Assembly (NCBI RefSeq): GCF_016458825.1
Contig: NZ_CP066744.1
Span: forward strand, 1,485,868 to 1,549,867
DNA: 64,000 nt
DNA from: Miniphocaeibacter halophilus
Lineage (GTDB): Bacteria; Bacillota; Clostridia; Tissierellales; Peptoniphilaceae
Reading direction: 5' to 3'
Part shown: piece after piece, positions 44,083 through 46,479 of the stretch
How positions within the stretch are numbered: the stretch's first letter is position 1
Layout of the letters: each line of letters starts with the position of its first letter
Translations under genes and position numbers: made by a program
The notes under the pieces: model-generated
What the model saw: only the letters and a program-made list of their open reading frames with translations
What the model was told of the DNA's origin: nothing
Databases searched by the model: none

Positions 44083-44117
44083 AAATTCCAGACTAAATAT
44101 AGTCTGGAGTTTTTTTA
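44083..44117. terminator. Bidirectional terminator
   Basis: Arms AAATTCCAGACTA and TAGTCTGGAGTTT flank an AATA loop, with A-run on the left and T-run on the right. It separates the plus-strand YfhO region from the minus-strand S41-like gene. Confidence 0.88.
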
Positions 44118-45347
44118 ATTTAACATTTCAAGTAAAATATTTAAGGCATCTGATTCCTCGTCTACCCTTATTTCAGGATATGTGCCAAATTCAGTATTAG
44201 GTGAACCTTCTTCATTTATTCCCATACCTACTGGCATTGAAAGAACAAAACCGCTTTTAGGAAGTTCTATAAAAGCCGTATTTAAGTTAACCCCATTTCC
44301 ACCGGTAAATTGACCAACTGTACTTGCAAAATCTGTAATATTTGAAAACTGACTAAAAAAATCAGCGGCATTTCTGGTATTTCTATTTTGCAATAAGAAT
44401 ATTTCACCTTTAAAATTGGTTTTTTTTTCAATTCTTATATTGTATTCTCTATAAAGAGGAAAGTTTTCAAGGTTATCATTGGAAATAGGTGTATCTTTTA
44501 GCTGTGATGATTTTTCAAAATCGGTTTTTATTGTTATATAAGGTAAATAATTATAATAATTTAAAAATTCTTGATGATTTTCATTTCTTTCAAGAATAAG
44601 GGAATTCATTACAAGGGTATCGTGTGCTAACGGCTCCACTATATTATTTAAAACATATTCAATAGATTGCCCTTGGTTATCTCTTATATCTATTATCAAA
44701 TAAGGATAATCCATAATACTATTAATAAAATTCTCAATAAGGGGTTTATCCGTCTCAACAAATAGGGGACTGAAATCCGTTATTTTTATGTAGGCAATTT
44801 TATTTTCTAAAAGAATTGTCATGGAAAGTCCGCTAAAATAGTTGCTATTTTTAAAGTTATTCTTATATTCCCCATAGCGCAATGTAGGCATTTCAGAATT
44901 TAAAACATCATACCAAGGTGAATTACCATTGATTTCTTCATATTCTTTGTATAAATAATAATCATCAGAATTTAATAGAAATAAATTAGGCTGATTAAAT
45001 TCTTTGAAAAAATCTGATAAAATTTTTTCGTAATTTATGTCATCCTTAGTTTCTATAATAAGTTTTTCGTATTTTTCTTTTATTTGACTAAGATTAACTT
45101 CAGAATATTTTTCATTTATAGCTAGGTAGGGATAATCTTCTTCTAATAGTTTCATTATAAAATTAAATTCTTCTAGTTTATCTTTTTCAGTTAAATGAGT
45201 TAAAGTTGCCTTGTTTTCAACTGATTTTTTTCCCTTTAAAAATTTACTAGGATCAAATAAAAGAAAAGCTATTACAAAAATAGCAATATAGAAAAATATT
45301 AGAAACAAATTGTTCTTTTTGTTTTTTCTTCTACGCTTCTTTTTCAT
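44115..45347 (-). CDS. S41-family peptidase-like protein, catalytic residues missing
   Basis: The 410-residue membrane-anchored protein has a Lys/Arg-rich N-terminus, one membrane helix (about residues 13-32) and an extracellular domain. It follows the S41 (tail-specific protease) layout: FIMKLLEEDYPYL, LIIDIRDNQGQS (residues 217-228) where active members have the D-R-N-N-G-G type turn, FLLQNRNTRNAADFF, and FGTYPEIRVD near the end. In active members the TxSAAE segment supplies the catalytic Ser, and here it reads T324-R-N326-A-A-D, so Ser is Asn. The Lys in the following GxxTxGKG segment is also lost (VGQFTGGNG). It is probably a non-catalytic binding protein. AGGAG precedes the start. Confidence 0.75.
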   Translation of the reverse strand: MKKKRRRKNKKNNLFLIFFYIAIFVIAFLLFDPSKFLKGKKSVENKATLTHLTEKDKLEEFNFIMKLLEEDYPYLAINEKYSEVNLSQIKEKYEKLIIETKDDINYEKILSDFFKEFNQPNLFLLNSDDYYLYKEYEEINGNSPWYDVLNSEMPTLRYGEYKNNFKNSNYFSGLSMTILLENKIAYIKITDFSPLFVETDKPLIENFINSIMDYPYLIIDIRDNQGQSIEYVLNNIVEPLAHDTLVMNSLILERNENHQEFLNYYNYLPYITIKTDFEKSSQLKDTPISNDNLENFPLYREYNIRIEKKTNFKGEIFLLQNRNTRNAADFFSQFSNITDFASTVGQFTGGNGVNLNTAFIELPKSGFVLSMPVGMGINEEGSPNTEFGTYPEIRVDEESDALNILLEMLN

Positions 45348-45423
45348 ACACTACTCCTAGGATATTATTAATTATTTGATAGTTATTATTATACTATAAA
45401 CTTAAATAATATTTAAATTAAAC

Positions 45424-45453: not shown

Positions 45454-45487
45454 GTATTAAGTAGAGATAAAGAAAGAAGGAGATGCA

Positions 45488-45970
45488 ATGGATAAGAATG
45501 TACTAGATAATGCAAATGAACTAATAAATTATAATTTAAATAATTATCTTTATTATAGATCCATGAAATCTTGGACTGATCGTAATGGTTGGAAAGGGTT
45601 CTCTAATTTGCTGAATAAGCAGTCTATGTATGCTTTGAAAGACTCTGAAATAATAGAGAACTATTTAAGACAATTAGGATATGTAGTTTCATTTGAAAAA
45701 ATGGATAAGATTGAAAATGGCATTGAAAATTTACAGGATGTTATTAAAGCTGTAGTTAAAACAGAAAAAAAACTATGTAATAAATATGATGAAATTGTTC
45801 TAAAGGCAAGGGAAGAAAAAAATTATGAAATTGAAATTTTCTTTAAAAACCTATTAGCAAATCAAACAAAGGTAGTATCTTATATTGAACCTTTAGAGCT
45901 AAGAATGAAAAGAATAGGAAAAAAATCTAATGGCTTATTTATATTAAATAGCTCATTAGCAAAATTATAA
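45488..45970 (+). CDS. Ferritin-like protein lacking most ferroxidase ligands
   Basis: The 160-residue protein aligns along its full length with the ferritin encoded next to it (for example LDNANEL/LDNMNEQ, GWKGFSNLLNKQ/DWNGYANFLYKQ, LRQLGY/LLEVGY). Aligned to E. coli FtnA numbering, E17 is Asn16, E50 is Ala49, H53 is Asp52 and E130 is Val129, while E94 (E93) and Q127 (Q126) remain. It should fold as a four-helix bundle but not oxidise iron on its own. It may form mixed shells with the second ferritin or be a decaying copy. It has a strong AGAAGGAG site and its own promoter, so it is probably expressed. Confidence 0.8.
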   Translation: MDKNVLDNANELINYNLNNYLYYRSMKSWTDRNGWKGFSNLLNKQSMYALKDSEIIENYLRQLGYVVSFEKMDKIENGIENLQDVIKAVVKTEKKLCNKYDEIVLKAREEKNYEIEIFFKNLLANQTKVVSYIEPLELRMKRIGKKSNGLFILNSSLAKL

Positions 45971-45990
45971 AACAAGGAGATATTAATATT

Positions 45991-46479
45991 ATGGATAACA
46001 AAAAATTACTTGATAATATGAATGAACAATATAATTTCGAATTAGAGTCAGCATATATTTATAAAGCTATGGCTCATTGGTGTGAAATAAATGATTGGAA
46101 CGGATATGCAAATTTCCTATATAAACAAGAAGAAGAGGAAATAGAGCATGCAGATAAATTTAAAGATTATTTATTAGAAGTTGGCTATGATGTTAAGCTA
46201 AAAGCTATAGGAGAACCAAAATCAGATTATAAGGATTTAGAAGAAATATTTAAAGCAGCTTTAGAGCATGAAAAAGTTGTTACTTCAAGAATAAGAAAAT
46301 TATTTGATGAAGCTAGAGAAATTGGCGATTATGCATCTGAAGATTTATTATCTTGGTATATAACTGAACAAGTTGAAGAAGAAGCATCCTTTGAAGCTAT
46401 TATTACTAGACTTGAAAGAATTGACGGAAGTATATCAGGACTTTATATTTTTGATGGTGAAATGGCTCAAAGACAATAA
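45991..46479 (+). CDS. ftnA: Ferritin (non-haem iron storage)
   Basis: The 162-residue FtnA-type ferritin stores iron as ferric mineral inside a 24-mer. The ferroxidase ligands are all present at E. coli numbering: E17, E50, H53 (EEEIEHAD), E94, Q127 and E130 (EQVEEEA). Length is normal. It lies 20 bases after the degenerate paralogue, with AAGGAG upstream, so both come from one transcript. The gene after it, engB, follows within nine bases and is probably co-transcribed. Confidence 0.94.
   Translation: MDNKKLLDNMNEQYNFELESAYIYKAMAHWCEINDWNGYANFLYKQEEEEIEHADKFKDYLLEVGYDVKLKAIGEPKSDYKDLEEIFKAALEHEKVVTSRIRKLFDEAREIGDYASEDLLSWYITEQVEEEASFEAIITRLERIDGSISGLYIFDGEMAQRQ

Follow-up and report, generated by a model that had tools for sequence, protein, structure and literature searches.

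The window analysed here comprises 64,000 nucleotides of the genome of Miniphocaeibacter halophilus, which is assembled as one contig of 2.39 Mb (genome G000, contig C1, positions 1485868-1549867). Two open reading frames on the forward strand that both match the ferritin family PF00210 fill positions 45488 to 46479, in agreement with the tandem ferritins described there by the initial annotation. The first frame (45488..45970) encodes P1, a ferritin-fold subunit of 160 residues with a pI of 9.1 from which ferroxidase ligands have been lost, and the second (45991..46479) encodes P2, a canonical non-heme bacterial ferritin of 162 residues with a pI of 4.5 and complete site A, B and C ligands. 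The frames are separated by 20 nt, and each is preceded on the same strand by an AAGGAG stretch that resembles a ribosome-binding site in sequence (45477..45482 for P1; 45974..45979, within the gap, for P2). From the shortness of this gap, we infer that P1 and P2 are on one transcript. The YsxC/EngB-type GTPase gene that begins 8 nt 3' of P2 (46488..47093, forward strand; PF01926, which we take to be YsxC) is likely on the P2 transcript as well, and it serves as a marker of the conserved locus. Further downstream, a small HATPase (PF13581; 47564-47956 of the window), presumably of the anti-sigma-kinase type, lies between the GTPase gene and a gene for a GTPase that is BipA/TypA-like by eye. 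Upstream, an S41-family peptidase-like gene on the reverse strand (44115..45347) is divergent from P1 and is kept as a neighbour in three genomes of the genus. In between, a TTGTTA-18-TATAAT element 5' of P1 (45424..45453, forward strand) is promoter-like by consensus match only. Its counterpart is GGGTATAA in a second species (G001) and GGGTATAAT in a third genome of the genus (G002), each 5' of the first ferritin gene, and all three genomes have the GGGTATAA(T) element ahead of their first ferritin gene. Between 45300 and 47700, promoter-like sites are no commoner than in shuffled sequences (22 versus 18.2 expected), and no terminator-like sites were found (0 versus 0.5 expected). A candidate Fur box at 45377 was dismissed as meaningless because 22 matches with up to three mismatches were found where 21.7 were expected. 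Besides P1 and P2, the genome holds two further PF00210 matches, one Dps-like (L002) and one rubrerythrin-like with C-terminal CxxC motifs (L004), both classed by eye.

P1 scores 57.2 bits and P2 134 bits against PF00210 (cut-off 24.5), while the cut-offs of the NCBIfam ferritin models are reached by neither. In BLASTP, the two proteins are 27% identical over 157 residues with 0 gaps. With positions 17, 24, 49, 50, 53, 94, 126, 127, 129 and 130 of E. coli FtnA as a ruler, FtnA and P2 have the same ten letters, EYEEHEEQEE, and P1 has NYYADENQKV. P1 retains Y23, E93 and Q126 (Y24, E94 and Q127 in FtnA) and carries N16, Y48, A49, D52, N125, K128 and V129 in place of E17, E49, E50, H53, E126, E129 and E130. 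In other words, all six ligands of the A and B sites are present in P2 and only two, E94 and Q127, in P1, in which the further acids tested (49, 126 and 129) are missing as well (0/3). The initial annotation was thus right that the second protein has all six ligands and that the first has lost E17, E50, H53 and E130, to which E49, E126 and E129 can be added. P1 is a ferritin by fold and, by its ligand letters, not a ferroxidase ferritin; it would be expected to lack ferroxidase activity. Among 78 distinct ferritin-like frames, a non-random set of best hits, second copies from the two-hit genomes of the family search, eighteen weak hits from the class and two from the family, with ligands read only in those loci that were fetched from among the hits, 74 have the full ligand set, one is cut by a contig end, one is Bfr of E. 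coli, included as a control, and two are P1. The loss does not stem from sequencing, since the P1 ortholog of the second species shows the same ten letters. Tandem ferritin genes in another genus of the same family (L042, G033:C3:358900-361600; L043, G153:C12:510000-512700) were considered as a parallel and set aside, since all four proteins keep every ligand.

Despite these losses, the fold appears to be kept. Of the 46 positions at which at least 85% of 31 canonical rows have a hydrophobic residue, P1 remains hydrophobic at 41. AlphaFold2, run on a four-sequence alignment, predicts four helices in P1 (5-32, 36-62, 82-109 and 113-146; pLDDT 83, pTM 0.77) and nearly the same four in P2 (pLDDT 87). 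The five P1 models have pLDDT values of 83, 82, 81, 76 and 54, the last one being poor, and the final 14-17 residues, i.e. the helix E region, are of low confidence, mostly below 50, in the models of both proteins. Foldseek matches of the P1 model are ferritins (1eum_A, TM 0.90), and the best VIA-align Z reaches 22.0 (158 residues, 2.0-2.1 A). P1 is therefore predicted to be a ferritin four-helix bundle, and the description of its length and helix pattern as kept fits both this prediction and the gap-free alignment to P2.

The property that sets P1 apart from other ferritins, in addition to its ligands, is its charge. Its pI is 9.11 in M. halophilus and 8.97 in the second species, as opposed to 4.38-5.00 in 75 other distinct ferritins. 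From P2 to P1, net charge changes from -4 to 0 in helix A, from -5 to +1 in helix B, from -1 to +2 in helix C and from -7 to +3 in helix D. Helices B and D of the M. halophilus P1 lie outside the range of 76 rows (maxima of 0 and -1, with P2 included twice), the charges of helices A and C within it; in the second species, helix B is at 0, the edge of this range, and helix D at +3. Charge is thus inverted in P1 of both species, and most strongly in helices B and D, which form the lining of the ferritin cavity.

This bears on the proposal of the initial annotation that the pair is divided into H-type and L-type subunits. The ligands, the fold and the selection on P1 (see below) speak for the part of this proposal that concerns a catalytic and a non-catalytic subunit, while the nucleating role suggested for the latter is not supported. 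At FtnA positions 45, 48, 49, 52 and 55, which we assume to be equivalent to the acidic patch of animal L chains, P1 has K, M, Y, K and E (one acid in five) and P2 K, E, E, E and D (four in five). Taken by itself, the patch is weak evidence because a single acid at these places is also seen in 7 of the 75 canonical rows; together with helices B and D at +1 and +3, it does not support nucleation by P1.

P1 has a narrow distribution. An ortholog is present in one other species, G001, with 88% identity and S41 and P2 as neighbours. This genome is a bin of 4.5 Mb whose contamination is 9%, and the contig with P1 (G001:C506; 13,177 bases) keeps the gene order of the genus. Among named records, the nearest one with P1 is a metagenome-assembled 'Gallicola sp.' (Peptoniphilaceae; DUUN01000643.1), in which the protein is 88% identical. 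In the third genome of the genus, the S41, P2, YsxC and ATPase genes follow in the same order without P1; P1 was not found elsewhere in this genome, and the 211-base gap in which a remnant was sought gave as its best match a stretch of 13 residues at E 0.18 that lies on the opposite strand. The scenario of a first gene decaying in sister strains, named in the initial annotation as grounds for refuting its reading, was checked in the three genomes: P1 is intact in G001, and it is absent from G002, with no remnant found in the gap. Of 249 genomes of the order, a search with a P1 profile found P1 in 2, with the P1 proteins at 347-349 bits and P2, the next match, at 72.6 bits. P2 is also the best non-P1 match in the samples of the class (391 genomes; next match 66.2 bits) and of the phylum (398 genomes; next match 53.8 bits). 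Because the best match outside P1 is its own neighbour in all three samples, horizontal acquisition has no support, and no plasmid matches to P1 were found. Among the matches listed for the class sample (391 genomes), there is at least one close tandem pair (G033), and the M. halophilus P1 is absent from those listed.

In two genomes of the sister genus g31, a ferritin gene lies directly 5' of YsxC, with genes that are DHFR-like and PspC-like by eye upstream. From this ferritin-YsxC order and the P2-YsxC order in G002, P2 is the ferritin in the syntenic place, and P1 is an additional copy. The Shine-Dalgarno stretch of the lone G002 ferritin is by eye closer to that of P1 than to that of P2, and this together with the shared GGGTATAA(T) element suggests that P1 may hold the original first-gene position. 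The leader of the lone ferritin (L007, about 1975-2154) is longer and includes GGGTATAAT and the P1-like Shine-Dalgarno stretch. A second, distant ferritin with all ligands present is encoded elsewhere in G002 (L049, 965-1510; G002:C9:57400-59800) and might stand in for the role of P1.

Between M. halophilus and G001, P1 has a dN of 0.068, a dS of 0.516 and a dN/dS of 0.131 (Fisher p 8e-13 for the contrast of synonymous and non-synonymous change), and P2 has a dN of 0.015, a dS of 0.407 and a dN/dS of 0.038. P1 has accumulated 25 non-synonymous changes versus 6 in P2 (p 0.0004), which makes its dN 4.5 times that of P2, and synonymous changes are similar (p 0.44). P1 is thus under purifying selection in two species and is not decaying, and the pseudogene explanation is rejected by the dN/dS of 0.13 and the intact frame in both. 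In the tree, the P1 stem has 2.2-2.35 changes per column and both P1 tips have less than 0.1. P1 is, therefore, a retained gene that went through a period of rapid change and is less constrained. P1 forms a long branch. Constraints that hold it with the three P2 proteins of the genus (p-AU 0.02) or with those of M. halophilus and G001 alone (p-AU 0.023) are mildly rejected, while one that holds it with the P2 proteins of the genus plus three g31 ferritins is not (p-AU 0.49). The duplication may accordingly be older than the genus with loss elsewhere, or younger and fast.

Based on these data, we suggest a model in which P1 joins P2 in mixed 24-subunit shells, where it would be the cationic, non-catalytic subunit, a reading that we hold to be somewhat likelier true than false. 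In this model, P1 and P2 would be made from one operon and assemble into mixed shells in which P2 oxidises Fe(II), while P1 adds wall but no ferroxidase centre and brings neutral or positive charge to the cavity-lining helices. The share of P1 would then fix the number of active sites and the negative charge per shell, and its content could change iron loading or release. Co-assembly is favoured by the arrangement of the genes (same strand, 20-nt gap, AAGGAG ahead of each), by the gap-free alignment over 157 residues together with the predicted ferritin fold and the retained hydrophobic positions, and by ligand letters conserved in a second species at a dN/dS of 0.131; the charge inversion in both species counts for a cationic subunit. 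Finally, there is a precedent in Magnetospirillum gryphiswaldense, in which Bfr1 and Bfr2 are described as encoded in a tandem operon and as joining in one 24-mer in spite of the loss of ferroxidase residues from Bfr2 (PMC6529640). Several observations count against co-assembly. P1 differs from P2 at 73% of positions and has a long stem, so that shell contacts may have changed; it evolves faster than P2; the helix E region is predicted with low confidence and one of the five models is poor; P2 is independent of P1 in G002, which lacks P1; and E. coli FtnB shows that a dismantled ferritin may work apart from the catalytic one.

This last point leads to the main rival explanation, namely that P1 builds a shell of its own, an easily drained Fe(II) reservoir like Salmonella FtnB, and is merely co-expressed with P2. 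Like P1, the enterobacterial FtnB (E. coli b1902) is a non-heme ferritin-like protein with a dismantled site, and its gene lies 5' of ftnA in the same orientation. Its ten letters are EYSNQYEQHD, with E49, E50, H53, E94 and E129 lost and E130 changed to D, and its C-terminus aligns poorly. In contrast to P1, it keeps E17 and E126 and loses E94. For Salmonella, FtnB has been described as lacking a conserved ferroxidase domain and has been proposed to be a facile Fe2+ reservoir; it is reported to be induced by iron limitation, while FtnA is highest with abundant iron (PMC4450229), a pattern at odds with two proteins from one operon. Moreover, in E. coli ftnB stands on its own, 1.3 kb away from ftnA and separated from it by other genes, whereas P1 is in the putative operon of P2; NF011597, the NCBIfam model of the FtnB type, does not match P1 at E<=0.01; and a basic P1 without the acids of helices B and D looks poorly suited to holding iron alone. 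We therefore regard a separate reservoir as unlikely. In E. coli K-12 (L069, 2926-5214), yecJ, azuC/azuR and yecR lie between ftnB and ftnA, and the inactive gene precedes the active one, as in P1/P2.

The charge inversion in both species, together with the loss of four of the six A/B-site ligands and the three tested C-site acids, could also mean that P1 has left iron storage altogether and, as a basic ferritin-fold protein, binds nucleic acid or another anionic partner. We consider this quite unlikely: P1 is co-located with P2, the charge shift is largest in the cavity-facing helices B and D rather than specifically on the outside, and the genome already encodes a Dps-like protein. That P1 is an assembly-limiting subunit, which dimerises with P2 and restrains shell formation without being a regular wall subunit, recalls the poor assembly of one subunit on its own reported for hetero-Bfr pairs (PMC6529640), but P1 carries neither an insertion nor a truncation of a kind that would obviously prevent contacts (0 gaps in 157 residues), making this explanation highly improbable. 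A relaxed duplicate on its way to loss, as the absence of P1 from G002 and its 4.5-fold higher dN might indicate, is hardly credible for an open frame that has been kept at a dS of about 0.5 with a dN/dS of 0.13 (Fisher p 8e-13).

Thus, a mixed shell of P1 and P2 remains our preferred reading, and the pairing of catalytic and inactive tandem subunits is already known in bacteria, with the Magnetospirillum operon as the closest proven case. Similar to this pair, P1 and P2 are one subunit without and one with an intact ferroxidase site, here by ligand letters, and similar to hetero-Bfrs from tandem duplications, of which Shewanella SoBfr12 is given as an example that forms mixed 24-mers (PMC12120770), their genes are adjacent duplicates. 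By contrast, the inactive Magnetospirillum Bfr2 is described as binding haem through Met52 (PMC6529640), whereas both P1 proteins have Leu at this place; a haem role for P1 is for this reason unlikely, and P1 as a haem-binding second subunit was rejected. In addition, P2 has Gln and Glu, the Ftn type, instead of the Glu127 and His130 of a Bfr-type active site. Two ferritin subunits in one bacterial shell, as proposed for P1/P2, are also reported for FtnA and BfrB of Pseudomonas aeruginosa; however, the ferroxidase centres of both are described as working and the genes of fluorescent pseudomonads as dispersed (PMC8945002), while the site of P1 is dismantled and its gene is adjacent to P2. Among the papers examined from a limited search of the open-access literature, no mixed bacterial shell lacked a haem-binding bacterioferritin subunit.

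In animals, ferritin combines a catalytic subunit with an isostructural one without the site (PMC7762939, PMC7557750); nucleation is attributed to a site on the L chain (PMC7557750, PMC11719527), whose ferroxidase site is described as filled by a Lys62-Glu107 salt bridge (PMC11396501). The likeness to P1/P2 lies in the pairing of a subunit that has a ferroxidase site with one that lacks it, for P1/P2 by ligand letters alone, and in the Glu107 equivalent (FtnA E94), which P1 keeps. Unlike the L chain, P1 has Ala at the Lys62 place, with a Lys at FtnA position 129 beside the lost E130, and it lacks an acidic patch of the L kind at the positions assumed above. We saw no sign of a common origin of P1 and animal L chains. 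We put forward, as a doubtful but possible interpretation, that the pair is a non-heme two-subunit shell that evolved independently of both the animal ferritins and the hetero-bacterioferritins and whose second subunit is cationic, neither catalytic nor nucleating, and reverses the charge of the cavity helices. A cationic P1 might draw phosphate for an iron-phosphate core or ease the release of iron in an anaerobe, as the Peptoniphilaceae are. If true, such a shell would represent a third solution to the division of labour in ferritin shells, and a natural cationic ferritin subunit would be useful for charge-patterned cages. If P1 and P2 do co-assemble, they would be a parallel in bacteria to the animal H/L shell that occurs naturally and is free of a confounding haem ligand, and, because two genomes of the genus have the pair and the third P2 alone, the value of an inactive subunit would be directly testable in these bacteria.
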